Source: Deltaproteobacteria bacterium
GTDB lineage: Bacteria > Desulfobacterota > Desulfarculia > JACQYL01
Direction: 5' to 3'
NCBI GenBank assembly: GCA_016208165.1
Contig: JACQYL010000133.1
Span: forward strand, 1 to 64,000
Length of the DNA stretch: 64,000 nucleotides
A program made the position numbers and the translations under genes. Positions 3,401-40,218 of the stretch are shown piece by piece. The notes under the pieces were generated by a model. It was not told the DNA's origin. It saw only the letters and a list, made by a program, of their open reading frames with translations, and ran no database searches. The first letter of the stretch is position 1, and every line of letters begins with the position of its first letter.

Positions 3401-5065
3401 TTAGAAAAGAAGGGAAGCAGGCAGAATGATTGCCACGACGAAAGCGGCGAACAGGACGGCCGATAGAAGAGCGGATTCTTCTTTGACTTCGAAGCCGGCG
3501 GACGGAGAGAAGTCGCTTTGGAATCCCGGCAAATGGAGCGATGCGCGCACATAATAGGTCCCCGGATCCTCGGGTTTCTCCAGAATGATTTCGGGTACCT
3601 CGGTTGTTTTCGATACGATGATTTCCTGGAACCGTGGATCTTTGGAAATCTGAAACTCATACCGGAAGTGGTCTGCAACAGCGGGTGATGTGATTCGCAG
3701 CCGGTTCCCCTTCTTGTCCATTGGTTCGATCGCGGGCTCCGGAGGAGGTGGGACTACCCGGAAGGAAGAGACATTGGACCACAAACCCTCATAGTCGTCC
3801 TCGGCGATGGAACGAATTCTGACCTGATATACGGAGGGAGCGGCCGGTTGAAATTCGAAAGCCGGTTGCGTTGTCTCCGTTATCACTTTGTCGAACACCT
3901 GAAGCAACTCCCCTTTCCGCACCTGGATGCGGTATTTTTTCGCCTGCGGCACGCCGGCCCACGAAAAGTGAACCATGCCGCTCTTGAATACCCGATCTCC
4001 TTGTGCCCACGAAAGAACGGGCGGCCGTGGATGGACTCGGATGCGAAATTCGACCGGTACGGAGTCGATCCCCTCGATACCCGCGCGGTCGATGCTCCCG
4101 GCCCGCAGAAAATACGCGCCGTCAGCCATGTCGTCCAATCGGAACCTCTCGCGAGGCTCGACCATGGTTTCTCGGAGAATGCCATGGAAATCGGGATCCG
4201 CCGCAATCATGATTCGATATCGAAAAGCCCCTTCTATGTTCTCGAACTCGAGTTCCACCGGTAAATGGGTAATCAAGGGTGAAGGGATCGTAACCTCGGG
4301 GGGAGGAAGGAGTTCGGAAGGCGCCGAGGGGGCTTCGCCTTTTCGTACAAGACTGCCTTCGCCCTCCTTGACCTGAACTTCGGCTTCATTGGCTTTGAGC
4401 GACAGGCTCCCCTGGAGTACTTCGCATCGGGTGTCTTCGCTCGTGTCGACGGAGGCTCGAAATTCCGTGCCCCGGACAGCCGCCACCGCGGAAGGCGTTT
4501 CCACCTGAAAGCGTGCGTCGGCGCCCGTGGCTTTCTTGATCCTTGAGAGGACTCTTCCTATTCCCATCCATAATTGGAAGAAGAGTCGGGACTCTCTCTT
4601 GGTATTTGCCTGGATGATTCGGAGGTTGGTATTCGACCTTATTACGAAGGCGTACCCGTCCTGAAAACTCACTCTCACCGAACCGTCGTTACCGGTTGTG
4701 ATACGACTACCCTCACGAATTGAGTCGTTCAAATGGACGGGAATTGAGGTTTGATCCGTATCCTTGCTGATTTTTACATCTCCTTGAACGAAGGTTATTA
4801 CGCCGTTCAAGGGGATCCCCTTTAACATATCTATAGGCACAATAACTTTATCATTCGGATGTATCAGGTTTGGATTCTTTATGTTGTTCAATTCAGCGAT
4901 CTTCGGCCAGTCCTCCGGATATTGCAGCCATTTTCTGCATATTTTGATCAAACAGTCCCCGGTCTCGACGTTCAACTCTACGAATTGATCCGCATGAGAC
5001 ATCGAAATATTCAGCGAAATAAAAATCAGAGATAGGATCAGAATAGAATGAAAGCGAATGTTCAT
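3401..5065 (-). CDS. LysM-FecR domain envelope protein
   Basis: This 554-residue exported protein has a signal peptide (residues 1-25, ending SHA). A LysM domain for peptidoglycan binding spans about 28-78 (GDCLIKICRKW, HPNDKVIVP). A FecR domain at about 95-220 is recognised by GSRITTGNDGSVRVSF and AVAAVRGTEFRASV. Repeated fibronectin-III-like beta modules follow at about 260-520, and the C-terminus is a hydrophobic segment (ALLSAVLFAAFVVAIILPA) that may anchor it. It is the first gene of the operon with the CHASE2 kinase, 8 bases upstream. FecR domains relay envelope signals, so a role in feeding the CHASE2 sensor is a reasonable inference. No ligand can be named. Confidence 0.85.
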   Translation of the reverse strand: MNIRFHSILILSLIFISLNISMSHADQFVELNVETGDCLIKICRKWLQYPEDWPKIAELNNIKNPNLIHPNDKVIVPIDMLKGIPLNGVITFVQGDVKISKDTDQTSIPVHLNDSIREGSRITTGNDGSVRVSFQDGYAFVIRSNTNLRIIQANTKRESRLFFQLWMGIGRVLSRIKKATGADARFQVETPSAVAAVRGTEFRASVDTSEDTRCEVLQGSLSLKANEAEVQVKEGEGSLVRKGEAPSAPSELLPPPEVTIPSPLITHLPVELEFENIEGAFRYRIMIAADPDFHGILRETMVEPRERFRLDDMADGAYFLRAGSIDRAGIEGIDSVPVEFRIRVHPRPPVLSWAQGDRVFKSGMVHFSWAGVPQAKKYRIQVRKGELLQVFDKVITETTQPAFEFQPAAPSVYQVRIRSIAEDDYEGLWSNVSSFRVVPPPPEPAIEPMDKKGNRLRITSPAVADHFRYEFQISKDPRFQEIIVSKTTEVPEIILEKPEDPGTYYVRASLHLPGFQSDFSPSAGFEVKEESALLSAVLFAAFVVAIILPASLLF

Positions 5066-8803: not shown

Positions 8804-9868
8804 GTGCGCAGAACAAACGCGGGTGCGATCATGAAACGACTCAAAGGTGTCTTTCCATTGGCCATCGGCAGCTTTCCCCATGTGGCTGCGGAGGCGGCGC
8901 TGGACCTCATCTTCGAGGCGTTTCCCGATATACCGATCTGGCCCCAGCTTCCCAAGTCCCGATTCCTGGAGAACATGTACGTTCAATACAGTCACCCTGT
9001 CCCAGGGGTGCGTCTGGACGAGGAAAAGCAACGAATTTTCGTCGACACCGAAACTCGGATCGAACGGGAACTGGAACGATTCTATACGCATGTCCTGGAA
9101 GAAGACCTGGACTATTTCAAGCTCCCGGAAACGTACGCTGCAGGGTTTTATGCGTTACTGGAACGCTTAAAACGTGCGGAGAACGCGCCGCTCCGGGCGC
9201 TCAAAGGACATGTCACCGGCCCTTTCAGTTTCGGTCTTACCGTCCCGGATCAAAACGGCAGGGCGATCTTTTATCATTCCGAAATTTATGAAGCGGTCGT
9301 AACCGCGCTGAGTTTGAACGCCCGCTGGCAGGTTCAGCAGCTCAAGCGCTATGCCTCCGAGGTCATCGTGTTCATTGACGAACCCTATCTCGTGTCTTTC
9401 GGGTCCGCTTTTGTGGCTGCGAACAGGGAAAACGTCATCAGCAGCCTCAATCAAGTTGTGGAGTCGATTCATCAGGAAGGCGCCGTGGCCGGCATTCATT
9501 GTTGCGGTAATACGGACTGGTCGCTGGTGCTGCATTCGGATTTGGACGTGTTGAGTTTCGATGCATTTCGCTTCTTCCCCAATCTATTGCTGTACCTCAA
9601 CGACTTGACACATTTCTTCCGAAGAGGAGGCAGCATCGCCTGGGGCATCGTTCCTTCTTCGGACGAGGTCTTCGAACAGTCCGCCCGAGCCTTGACCGAG
9701 CTCCTTTCCTCGTACCTGGCGGAACTCGAGTCCAAAGGAATGGAAGGCGAGTGGCTGACGGGATGCGCGTTCGTCACCCCCGCTTGCGGGGTGGGTTCCG
9801 AGACCGAAGCCGTTGCCGAGGAAGCCGTGCGAAAAACACAGATCGTGGCCCGCGAGATCCTGAGCTGA
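8804..9868 (+). CDS. uroporphyrinogen decarboxylase / MetE-like TIM-barrel protein
   Basis: A 354-residue member of the UROD/cobalamin-independent methionine synthase superfamily. Supporting motifs are the N-terminal LAIGSFPHV, the mid-chain VIVFIDEPYLVSF, the Zn-site-like AGIHCCGNTDW, SFDAFRF, and the C-terminal cysteine motif FVTPACGVGS. His and two Cys in these motifs would form the zinc thiolate site used to activate a methyl acceptor. The substrate (a corrinoid methyl donor or a thiol) cannot be told. GTG 8804 has GAGGAG 12 bases upstream; ATG 8831 (MKRLKGVFPLA) is a credible alternative and has a poor ribosome site. The gene is a single unit behind its own promoter. Confidence 0.8.
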   Translation: MRRTNAGAIMKRLKGVFPLAIGSFPHVAAEAALDLIFEAFPDIPIWPQLPKSRFLENMYVQYSHPVPGVRLDEEKQRIFVDTETRIERELERFYTHVLEEDLDYFKLPETYAAGFYALLERLKRAENAPLRALKGHVTGPFSFGLTVPDQNGRAIFYHSEIYEAVVTALSLNARWQVQQLKRYASEVIVFIDEPYLVSFGSAFVAANRENVISSLNQVVESIHQEGAVAGIHCCGNTDWSLVLHSDLDVLSFDAFRFFPNLLLYLNDLTHFFRRGGSIAWGIVPSSDEVFEQSARALTELLSSYLAELESKGMEGEWLTGCAFVTPACGVGSETEAVAEEAVRKTQIVAREILS

Positions 9869-9990: not shown

Positions 9991-11382
9991 GTGCGATCCT
10001 TGCTTCATACGATGAGCATTCGAAATCTCTTCCGGCCCTGCTTCGTGACCTTGCTCGCGATCGTCCTCATCGGGCTTCCCGATCTTTCCGAGGGAACCCG
10101 GCCGCAACGTCCCAAGAGTCGGCACCAGTTTACACCCAAAGTTATCGACATCGAGCACAAGCTGAGTGACTGCTTCAAACTGCGTCCACGGGCGGAAACC
10201 CGCTTCGTTATCGTGCACACTTCCGAAGCCGGTCTGGAAAGCACCTTACGAACCCTCAGCCAAGGCAAAGTCCGTGGTTGCCGCTTGACCACCTGCGGAG
10301 GGCACGCCAATTACGCCATCGCGAGAAACGGCGATGTCTATCGGATACTGGGGCACCGTTTTCGAGCCGATCACGCAGGCATTTCCATGTGGAACGGTTA
10401 CAGGGACGTCAGCTCGTACTCGGTGGGCATCGAACTCATAGCCTATCACTACAGCACCATTACCGACTCCCAATACCGATCCCTCGAATGGCTGCTTCAG
10501 ATGCTCCGGAAAGCTTACGGGATTGACGAAAGGGATGTGCTCACCCATGCGCAGGTGGCTTACGGTCGGCCCAACCGCTGGCATCCAACGAAACATCGCG
10601 GCCGAAAACGTTGCGCCAAGAATTTCGATCGTCAGAAGGCCGGGTTGAAAACCGCCTGGACCTTTGATCCCGATGTTCGGGCCGGGCGGCTGACAAAGGA
10701 TGACCACCTGGCGGAAATTTTCTACGGTTCGGCAAGCCTCTTGGCAAGTAATGATGCCGTTCCGTACTTGGCAAGCGATAAACCCGTTCCGTCCTTGGGA
10801 AGCAATGAAGCCCTTCAGTCCTCGGCGAGCAATGAAGCCCTTCAATCCAATGTGATCTCTCTCAGGAATACTGCCTGGAACGTGGCAGGAGAAGACTACG
10901 ATTCCTGCAACACCGTATACGTCCTGCCCGGAGGAACCACGCTGCCGGGTGATCAGGTCGAGAAGAAGCTGGGATGGAGTCGTCTGCCTGCGGGGACCCG
11001 TGTGCTTCTCAATGTGGACACCGATCAGAAGGTGGAAGAAGGGCCCATCAAGACCCTGGAACACGGGAAAACGGCCTGGAGTCTGGCCGGACCCAACTAT
11101 CGGAACAAAAACACTTTCTATTTTCTTCCAGACGGCAAGGTTCTGCCCGGCCACAGGGTTTCCGACTGGGATTCGCTTCCCGAACACACTCGCATGATCA
11201 TGGGATATCGGGGGCCTTACACGCTTCGTCAAGGCAGACACCCCAAGAATGTGGTAGGTTCCGTCTATCGAAATGAAAACACCCTTTACTTCTACCCGGA
11301 CAACAAGCTCCTGAGCGCCGTAGAGATCGACAACTGGTCGGGTGTACCGGCGGGAACCCGCCTCTTCGTCAAGCTGAACTAG
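9991..11382 (+). CDS. N-acetylmuramoyl-L-alanine amidase (Amidase_2) with a triple repeat tail
   Basis: The product is exported (hydrophobic signal, about residues 12-35) and is expected to cut the amide between MurNAc and L-Ala. The Amidase_2/PGRP fold is shown by FVIVHTSE (His76), DHAGISMW (His128), SVGIELI, and the zinc-site segment WHPTKHRGRKRC (His198, His202, Cys208). A low-complexity linker of repeated ASNEALQS-type units (about residues 250-285) follows. After it come three copies of a 44-48 residue unit (about 294-341, 361-404, 420-463) with the pattern AW.LAG..Y...NT.Y.LP.G..LPG..V..W..LP..TR. This may bind cell wall or another surface polymer. The start is GTG 9991 with GGAG upstream; ATG 10012 is possible. 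Confidence 0.85.
   Translation: MRSLLHTMSIRNLFRPCFVTLLAIVLIGLPDLSEGTRPQRPKSRHQFTPKVIDIEHKLSDCFKLRPRAETRFVIVHTSEAGLESTLRTLSQGKVRGCRLTTCGGHANYAIARNGDVYRILGHRFRADHAGISMWNGYRDVSSYSVGIELIAYHYSTITDSQYRSLEWLLQMLRKAYGIDERDVLTHAQVAYGRPNRWHPTKHRGRKRCAKNFDRQKAGLKTAWTFDPDVRAGRLTKDDHLAEIFYGSASLLASNDAVPYLASDKPVPSLGSNEALQSSASNEALQSNVISLRNTAWNVAGEDYDSCNTVYVLPGGTTLPGDQVEKKLGWSRLPAGTRVLLNVDTDQKVEEGPIKTLEHGKTAWSLAGPNYRNKNTFYFLPDGKVLPGHRVSDWDSLPEHTRMIMGYRGPYTLRQGRHPKNVVGSVYRNENTLYFYPDNKLLSAVEIDNWSGVPAGTRLFVKLN
10738..10857 (+). repeat. short in-gene repeats encoding the amidase linker
   Basis: Four degenerate units of roughly 30 bases (for example AGCAATGAAGCCCTTCAGTC, repeated almost exactly once) encode the Ser/Asn/Ala-rich linker of the amidase. 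Repeats of this kind can expand or contract by slippage or recombination. Confidence 0.7.
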
Positions 11383-38678: not shown

Positions 38679-39098
38679 ATGGAACGAACGCTGTCCATCA
38701 TCAAGCCGGACGCGGTATCCAAGAATGTAATCGGTGATATCATTCGCCGTTTCGAAGCAGATGGCTTGAAAATTGCTTCTATGAAAATGGTTCATCTGTC
38801 CAAGAAACAGGCCGAAGGGTTTTATGTCGTACATAAAGCGAGACCTTTTTATCATAGCCTCACCGGCTTTATGTCCGAGGGGCCTATTGTGGTTATGATC
38901 CTGGAAGGACCCAACGCCATCGCCCGGAACAGGGCATTAATGGGGGCTACGAATCCCGCGGAGGCTGCTGATGGCACCATTCGAAAAGACCATGGAACCA
39001 ACGTGGAACGCAACGCCGTACACGGTTCCGACGCTCCCGAAACGGCCGCTTTCGAAATCGGCTTTTTTTTTTGCTTTATGGAAATCCCTTTTCGATAA
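38679..39098 (+). CDS. ndk: nucleoside diphosphate kinase
   Basis: 139 residues, full length from ATG 38679 with AGGAGGAAC upstream (GGAGGAAC at about 38667). It contains [22 protein letters not shown], the [17 protein letters not shown] region, and the catalytic His in [17 protein letters not shown]. It moves a phosphate from ATP to other NDPs. Near the 3' end a run of 9-10 T residues (about 39062-39071) encodes FFF. An in-frame upstream extension to 38526 is not needed. Confidence 0.94.
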
Positions 39099-39129
39099 TT
39101 TCTTTTTGGGACCGAAGCATCGCATATCC

Positions 39130-40218
39130 GTGAGGCGGTGCGCGACGGACCGCGCCCTTGGAACGCTTTTTTTCCTGATTTGCTTGGTCCTGCCCGCATC
39201 CACGTCCTATGGAGAGGTTCCGGAAGCGCTCCGATACTGCCCCGTGTATCAGCTTCCCGAAAAGCTGGACCTGTGCGGTGAACCCGTACCATTATCCAAC
39301 CCGGATGTATGGGAGCGGCTGGATCGGGAATTTCTGGTGGCCGTTTACGACCACGCCCAGGTGTTTCTCTGGCTCCGTCGGAGCTCCAGGTTTTTCCCTT
39401 TGATCGAAAAAGAACTTCGCGCCCGTTCTCTGCCGGATGATATCAAATACCTAGCCGTGGCCGAGAGCGCCCTGATTCCGCAAATACGGTCCTATAAAGG
39501 CGCTCTGGGCTGCTGGCAGTTTATCAAACCAACGGCGGAACGCTACGGATTACGCAGCAATGTTTTGTTTGAAGACCGATTGGACTTCGAGCGCGCCACG
39601 CAGGCCGCCCTTTCCTATCTTTCGGATTTGCACGAACAGTTCGATTCCTGGCCTCTGGCCATGGCGGCTTACAACTGCGGAGAGCAGCGAATTGAAAAGG
39701 AGATCAACGAACAGGGCGAAAAGAACTACTGGCGTCTGGATCTGCCCCCGGAAACCGAACGCTACATTTTTCGAATTCTGGCCGCAAAGCTGATCCTCAG
39801 CGATCCGGAAAAATACGGATACTGCCTTCTGGACCCCCGCGCCCAGTACGAGCCCGTGGAGTGGGAGAAGGTTCAGGTGAACTTTGATGAATCCGTCCAC
39901 ATCCGTACTGTTGCGCAGGCCTGTGGAACCTACTTCAAGGCCATTAAGGATCTGAATCCTGAAATCAAGGGATACTATTTCCCTCAGGGTACACATGAAA
40001 TACGGATCCCCAAAGGCTCCGGCAAAGATTTCGCGAAGTTTTACCGGGAATACAAGAAAGAGGCCCGGGAGGAGAAATACCAGGTACACGTTGTGAGAGA
40101 GGGCGAAAACCTCACCATGATCGCCGATCGATTCGGAGTTTCCGTAGATTCCCTGAGGAAGTGGAACGGTCTATCTAAGAACGTCATTCGTCCCGGTCAG
40201 AAACTGCGGGTTTACTAG
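39130..40218 (+). CDS. MltD-like membrane-bound lytic transglycosylase with LysM
   Basis: 362 residues from GTG 39130. A signal segment (GTLFFLICLVLPASTSYG) is followed by an SLT lysozyme-like domain with the catalytic Glu in LAVAESALIPQIRSYKGALG and CWQFIKPTAERYGL, DWPLAMAAYNCG-like WPLAMAAYNCGEQRI, and YIFRILAAKLIL. A LysM motif ends the protein (YQVHVVREGENLTMIADRFGVS, GQKLRVY). It cleaves glycan strands. The true start may be further 5', but ORF ahead of 39098 overlaps ndk and would precede the signal. Confidence 0.85.
   Translation: MRRCATDRALGTLFFLICLVLPASTSYGEVPEALRYCPVYQLPEKLDLCGEPVPLSNPDVWERLDREFLVAVYDHAQVFLWLRRSSRFFPLIEKELRARSLPDDIKYLAVAESALIPQIRSYKGALGCWQFIKPTAERYGLRSNVLFEDRLDFERATQAALSYLSDLHEQFDSWPLAMAAYNCGEQRIEKEINEQGEKNYWRLDLPPETERYIFRILAAKLILSDPEKYGYCLLDPRAQYEPVEWEKVQVNFDESVHIRTVAQACGTYFKAIKDLNPEIKGYYFPQGTHEIRIPKGSGKDFAKFYREYKKEAREEKYQVHVVREGENLTMIADRFGVSVDSLRKWNGLSKNVIRPGQKLRVY

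Follow-up and report, generated by a model that had tools for sequence, protein, structure and literature searches.

The stretch of DNA analysed here (the window) spans 64,000 nucleotides of a contig from a Deltaproteobacteria bacterium and harbors, on the forward strand, the gene of a putative cell wall amidase terminated by a tail of three related units. The reading frame extends from 9991 to 11382 with a GTG start, or from 10012 to 11382 with an internal ATG; the latter start is more likely and yields a product of 456 amino acids. From its N- to its C-terminus, this product comprises an apparent export signal, an Amidase_2 domain, a linker encoded by a DNA repeat, and the three C-terminal units (Table 1). 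Hydrophobic N-termini are also found, by eye, in most of the relatives described below. An earlier note, made from the DNA sequence alone, had set the start of the feature at 10738, a position that falls at the linker, while the enzyme itself starts at 10012. The gene directly upstream (8804-9868, + strand) is by eye of the methionine-synthase or uroporphyrinogen-decarboxylase type, and no link to the cell wall was seen for it.

Table 1. Features of the amidase gene and of its product, in window positions; residue counts refer to the alignment of 75 sequences
Feature	Position	Strand	Basis
Hydrophobic segment at the N-terminus (residues 1-28), apparent Sec signal peptide	10012..10095	+	translation, by eye
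Amidase_2 (N-acetylmuramoyl-L-alanine amidase) catalytic domain	10195..10572	+	PF01510, 62.2 bits; model aligned to AmpDh2 4bol_A
H69, presumed zinc ligand	10216..10218	+	75/75 aligned sequences, window included; in the aligned 'iilHtt' of AmpDh2
E141, presumed catalytic glutamate	10432..10434	+	75/75; aligned with 'sigiE' of AmpDh2
H179, presumed zinc ligand	10546..10548	+	75/75; same alignment position as a His in AmpDh2 and AmpD
K199-x-C201, presumed catalytic Lys and third zinc ligand	10606..10614	+	K199 75/75, C201 73/75
Linker from a 27-base tandem repeat, 4.0 copies	10740..10848	+	tandem repeat at the DNA level, 80% matches
C-terminal unit 1	10849..11013 (about)	+	shuffle test, conservation, model
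C-terminal unit 2	11047..11217 (about)	+	shuffle test, conservation, model
C-terminal unit 3, end of the protein	11218..11379 (about)	+	shuffle test, conservation, model

Amidase_2 is the sole Pfam family matched by the window protein (E 8.2e-17, with a bit score to be compared to a cut-off of 26; 65.2 bits in a whole-genome scan), which bears out, at the level of the family, the peptidoglycan amidase proposed in the earlier note. The genome to which the window belongs contains one Amidase_2 gene. The best PDB profile match is the Pseudomonas aeruginosa amidase AmpDh2 (1.3e-20). A full-length AlphaFold2 model was calculated from 75 aligned sequences, namely the window protein and 74 of its best 80 relatives (see below), and exhibits a mean pLDDT of 84.1; the best structural match of its catalytic part is again AmpDh2 (Z 18.6, rmsd of 2.3 Å over 156 residues), and E. 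coli AmiD yields a Z of 17.3. The His, Glu, and His residues are found at equal positions in the alignment with AmpDh2, their roles being those that we take over from AmpD. The K199-x-C201 motif was assigned by inspection, the PDB profile alignments ending before K199, and presumably corresponds to the K-x-C arrangement of T7 lysozyme; AmpD possesses K-x-D at the corresponding place.

These comparisons place the window protein among several known amidases without making it identical to any. AmpDh2 and AmiD share its catalytic fold, and both are exported, as the window protein apparently is; they differ from it by a K-x-D motif, and its three-unit tail lies outside the alignments, in which the model range stops at residue 225 or before. 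Its likeness to AmpD, the cytoplasmic 1,6-anhydro-MurNAc-L-Ala amidase (NF008758), extends to all 75 sequences, which match at E ≤ 1 (best 5.4e-20). However, the window protein reaches only 53.6-53.8 bits with this equivalog model, under its cut-off of 143, and differs from AmpD by its apparent export signal and its tail. T7 lysozyme (Z of 13.5) and PGRP-type amidases (Z of 14-16 in most rows) have the fold of the same superfamily and, presumably, the K-x-C ligand arrangement; they are not known to possess such a tail. Judged from its sequence, the enzyme falls within a known family, as a predicted zinc-dependent N-acetylmuramoyl-L-alanine amidase of the AmpD/AmpDh2/AmiD kind.

The linker following the catalytic domain had already been described as repetitive, and it is indeed a tandem repeat at the DNA level. 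This repeat is absent from the three relatives first aligned with the window protein, and the model is unconfident at this place (pLDDT < 50 for residues 217-251, window 10738-10842), so the linker looks like a local, disordered spacer. The three repeats that had been recognized beyond it are firmly established. Local alignments of the unit pairs score 107 (1-2), 75 (1-3), and 98 (2-3), as compared to means of about 21 (SD about 4) for shuffled pairs; none of 2000 shuffles reaches any of the observed scores, and a chance repeat was rejected on these grounds. The units are longer than the 44-48 residues initially given: about 50-58 once the strand preceding the 'AW' motif is included. Eleven columns are invariant across the three units of the window protein and, in unit 1, residues W289, Y303, P306, G308, G313, and T329 are each conserved in 75 of 75 sequences. 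These invariant residues may be structural rather than ligand-contacting.

The 225 units of the 75 proteins also inform on the age of the repeat. Mean identities between units at the same position across species are 45, 42, and 37%, as compared to 34, 32, and 29% between different positions within one protein. On a tree of all units, the position label changes three times, while at least 95 changes are counted in each of 200 shuffles. As the units group by position, the sequences indicate that the triplication is old and predates the spread of the gene.

The annotation of the tail cannot be borrowed from any family in the libraries used. The last 175 residues of the window protein do not match any Pfam or NCBIfam model at E up to 10, and this holds for SH3b, SPOR, CW_binding_1, PG_binding_1, and the other Pfam wall-binding domains; the earlier remark that the units are not recognizable as SH3b, LysM, SPOR, or CW_binding is in line with this result. 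When 12 units, the tails of the 75 proteins, and a further 10 units were compared to Pfam, only scattered matches were obtained, with no coherent family. At E up to 1, the 75 tails match 27 families, with details from 25 of the 27. A high-scoring match to a known family, the check set beforehand, was not found: the best one is K1-lyase_N (E 0.00062), in a single tail out of 75. The matches to CODH_A_N (0.0082, one tail), CopK (0.0092, two tails), and Tcp10_C (nine tails, best 0.025) were judged to be due to chance, like the others, in view of their scatter. Among the 25 families, the only wall-related match is Choline_bind_3 (one member, E 0.014). PDB profile searches with the tail returned nothing useful.

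Phage records yielded three weak matches (best E 0.4) and viral contigs 14 pattern stretches with no relative, and a phage origin was rejected on this basis. In PHROGs, matches concern the amidase part, save one in the tail at E 0.12, and in plasmid records they are confined to the amidase part among the 20 listed of 43. No defence genes were found. Among the binding domains accompanying this amidase type, a section of a review on wall hydrolases includes PGB1 and SPOR (PMC6403190). Full-text searches of an open-access collection retrieved papers on AmpDh2, and among the papers listed none concerns this tail, judged by title or start of abstract.

Modelled alone, the tail reaches a pLDDT of 89.8 and a pTM of 0.66. 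Each unit is predicted to fold as a strand, a helix, two strands, a short helix, and a final strand. The first strand is 1 residue long in unit 1, 2 in unit 2, and 6 in unit 3. A Foldseek search of the PDB library did not return any match at E 0.001 (best 0.57), and the best match in the viral library has an E of 0.061. In the realigned fold list, the best Z is 4.2. A similarity of single units to an RNA polymerase segment was discarded, with Z values of 4.2 and below, under the level that the tool considers informative. According to this model, the tail would be without a recognized relative in the PDB and viral libraries, which does not in itself prove a new fold.

LysM (PF01476) deserves closer consideration, as it is also a short module of wall hydrolases and as its first strand and helix resemble by eye those of the units. 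The latter might be strongly diverged LysM modules in which the second helix has turned into a pair of strands: their first half is LysM-like by eye (a strand and a G-x-T-x-W-x-I-A motif), most clearly in unit 1 of Kiritimatiellae, and LysM chains 4uz3 and 4uz2 are present among the lower rows of the fold lists. These rows are poor, however (E 3.9; Z 2.3 at an rmsd of 10.9 Å), and the strand-helix-strand-strand-helix-strand order of the predicted structure departs from the strand-helix-helix-strand core of LysM, two strands standing in place of helix 2. LysM does not match 12 units at E up to 10, nor 10 more (one with an inexact start), and is not among the 25 of 27 Pfam families detailed for the 75 tails. 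The unit profile, compared to the five LysM motifs of the window's genome, gives a probability of 0.46%, a value reached by 26 of 100 column shuffles with this small LysM set. A LysM origin of the units is hence very unlikely.

The order of the elements in the model also brings to mind a variant of the β-grasp (ubiquitin-like) fold, where each unit would pair its last strand with the first strand of the following one. In the model, the last strand of unit 2 is directly followed in sequence by the first strand of unit 3; strand pairing itself was deduced from the order of elements. The P-[DN]-G turn between strands and the end pattern resemble, as we see them by eye, those of β-grasp proteins, and the weak Foldseek list includes a PB1 domain as well as a multi-ubiquitin protein. 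These rows have E values of 0.65 and 3.9 and probabilities of about 0.1 or less, and we consider a β-grasp variant possible, though rather unlikely.

The distribution of the amidase-plus-tail protein emerged only from profile searches. The window tail, searched in 60 genomes including that of the window, gave weak matches only outside its own gene (best E 0.042), and a first scan of genome contigs with a single protein as query gave 12 pattern stretches with no relative. Searching the whole protein in the 63 genomes of the window's class retrieved the window itself and no copy in the other 62. Taken alone, such single-sequence searches would be misleading. A three-unit profile applied to 395 genomes of the phylum identified eight with matches at E 0.01; three of these besides the window (G276, G361, and G283) possess three units each in one frame, with the same amidase-plus-tail plan as the window protein. 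Single partial matches in G254 and G388, inside or across other proteins, and in G164, where the region reads as an RNA helicase on the opposite strand, were set aside. The eighth genome, G214, has a single match of half a unit, described below.

A scan of genome contigs with a profile of four full proteins produced 194 pattern matches, 164 of which encode relatives. The matches of the best 80 all extend at least to query residue 451; as the search patterns lie in the amidase, the tail is demonstrated for these best 80 of the 164 only. One of them (L113) has a broken frame. They are mostly assigned to Desulfobacterales, together with Kiritimatiellota, Verrucomicrobiota, and Lentisphaerota, with further labels such as Nitrospirota, Acidobacteriota, and Latescibacterota; many are metagenome bins, whose taxon labels may be wrong. 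The idea of a single-genome oddity was abandoned in view of the phylum profile search and of these relatives. On the tree of the 75 proteins, the window protein lies at the base of a clade otherwise mainly composed of Desulfobacterales (34 rows including the window, support 100/96), and its long branch (0.92) makes its exact place unsure.

Unit profiles document how frequent the tail is within larger groups. Among the 155 genomes in the class of G361, which is related to Smithella, a 12-unit profile matches 9, eight with three matches and one (G214) with half a unit. A 42-unit profile matches 1 of 8 genomes in the class of G276, 46 of 291 in the Desulfosarcina class, and 65 of 387 in the phylum of the Kiritimatiellota isolate B12222; in the last two groups, at most 23 and 17 candidates per genome, respectively, were scored, and other copies could be missed. 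Three matches are found in 45 of the 46 genomes of the Desulfosarcina class, and the remaining genome has a single match, located at a contig edge. Among the 65 genomes of the B12222 phylum, 44 have three matches, 6 have two, 14 have one, and 1 has five, two of which are on a contig edge piece. To note, amidase and tail are also present in a contig labelled Woesearchaeota (L075), an archaeon; as archaea are not known to possess murein, a binning error or a transfer is more likely. At another locus (L140:994-2384, - strand; G544), the amidase and the tail are split over two overlapping frames, and the gene looks broken or affected by an assembly error.

In nearly all the loci that were read, the tail is associated with this amidase. 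In the ten genomes in which every candidate was scored, exactly three matches in one frame are found (10/10), and the amidase motif is detected in 30 of 30 loci. Twenty unusual loci of the B12222 phylum, that is 15 of the 21 whose match number differs from three, plus 5 whose frames are exceptionally long, all have the match and the amidase motif within a single frame (20/20). Out of 8 further loci of this phylum and of the Desulfosarcina class, 7 match the amidase pattern, and in the eighth (L175) the amidase is present with A-I-E replacing G-I-E. In the class of G361, the motif is missing in G488, where the match is located at a contig end, and in G214. The latter is the only case seen without an amidase: its half-unit match (L019:1008-1223, E 1.9e-4) lies in a 71-residue frame and may be due to chance or to a distant relative. 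From these sequences, the module looks private to this amidase, a statement that covers the loci read. The proposal of a possibly new binding module retains its first part, as no known family was matched. A general module of wall hydrolases is disfavoured: a unit profile was searched, as the earlier note had advised, and in the loci read the module sits on orthologues of one amidase, with one MltB-type fusion of the whole protein, the half unit of G214 being the one match without an amidase.

The number of units is variable. In seven of the 15 odd loci, only a unit resembling unit 3 is present after a long linker, rich in Pro/Lys/Ala in most; the last-unit-only relatives are L182, L183, L185, L187, L192, L193, and L194. 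The other odd loci comprise two proteins ending after unit 1, four with two units, one running off its contig, and one with three diverged units. This make-up suggests that units can be lost one by one, and the relatives that keep only one suggest that three units are not strictly needed.

A natural fusion occurs at one locus (L076:4804-7143), where an MltB-type SLT_2 domain (116.8 bits) precedes the amidase and its three units within a single frame of 780 residues. A similar case in G456 was not counted as a second fusion, since it most likely represents the same genome. In another relative (L071), the adjacent upstream gene encodes a Peptidase_M23 (101.9 bits), and genes clustering with it occupy the same place in L070, L078, and L082. 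No conserved operon was found beyond small clades, neighbourhoods being mostly not conserved across phyla. An upstream neighbour group common to 10 loci looks by eye like phosphoglycerate mutase, a downstream group common to 7 loci like asparaginase, and the largest neighbour cluster (11 loci) appears to consist of antisense reading frames. The window's genome possesses one separate SLT_2 gene. Two other genes of the window harbor LysM motifs. The first (38971-40218, + strand, 415 residues) encodes by eye an MltD-type lytic transglycosylase with a C-terminal LysM (40087-40212, 52.4 bits); the second (3401-5065, - strand, 554 residues) encodes a protein with an N-terminal LysM (4835-4969, 28.9 bits) and a part that is FecR-like by eye.

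The restriction of the tail to one enzyme makes a dedicated arm a serious rival to a wall binder. The tail might be a regulatory or partner-binding arm private to the amidase. It would then gate the active site, mediate oligomers, or dock the enzyme to a single partner, for instance a transglycosylase or a protein of the outer membrane. A single kind of module on a single enzyme, with a fixed order and position-specific sequences, would be expected of such an arm, and the fusion to a transglycosylase domain is in keeping with it. Conversely, the loss of units down to one in several relatives and the long low-confidence linker of the window protein are more easily reconciled with a binder on a tether than with a rigid gate. 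We regard this alternative as possible, if somewhat unlikely.

The reading that we prefer, with a probability of about 0.6, is that of an exported zinc amidase acting in the periplasm, with a tail that most likely holds it on the sacculus. The N-terminus suggests that the protein would be exported to the periplasm, and the invariant residues point to an enzyme that would cleave the MurNAc-L-alanine bond. Its substrate would probably be glycan ends or fragments released by lytic transglycosylases, a connection suggested by the one fusion and by the M23 endopeptidase gene beside one relative. The three-unit tail would anchor the enzyme on the sacculus, as known binding modules do in other wall hydrolases; such wall binding is probable from the company that the tail keeps and by analogy. 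Several observations count against a sacculus anchor: among the loci read, no other wall hydrolase was found to carry the tail, while LysM, SPOR, and SH3 modules are reused; the neighbourhoods are mostly unconserved; some relatives possess one unit; and the gene is absent from the 62 other genomes of the class. A bolder version of the anchor would see in the tail a new fold of wall-recognition module, an ancient triplet fixed on one enzyme lineage. It would recognize a particular trait of the wall, such as the anhydro-MurNAc ends that MltB-type transglycosylases leave on strands, and would thereby direct the amidase to just-cut strands. This version is speculative and, in our opinion, doubtful.

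The enzyme thus belongs to a known family and its tail, at the level of sequence, fits no family tested. Cultured as well as uncultured bacteria, labelled as several phyla, possess this tail, for which the versions of Pfam and NCBIfam that were searched contain no model. A formal definition would name a domain that is shared by the best 80 relatives and that occurs, in the two groups sampled, in 46 genomes out of 291 and in 65 out of 387. Its apparent restriction to one amidase, with one gene per genome in the ten fully scored genomes, makes its function testable. The natural transglycosylase fusion, in turn, hints at the substrate that this amidase follows. Our impression is that few studies have addressed how the wall is recognized in Kiritimatiellota and Desulfobacterales.
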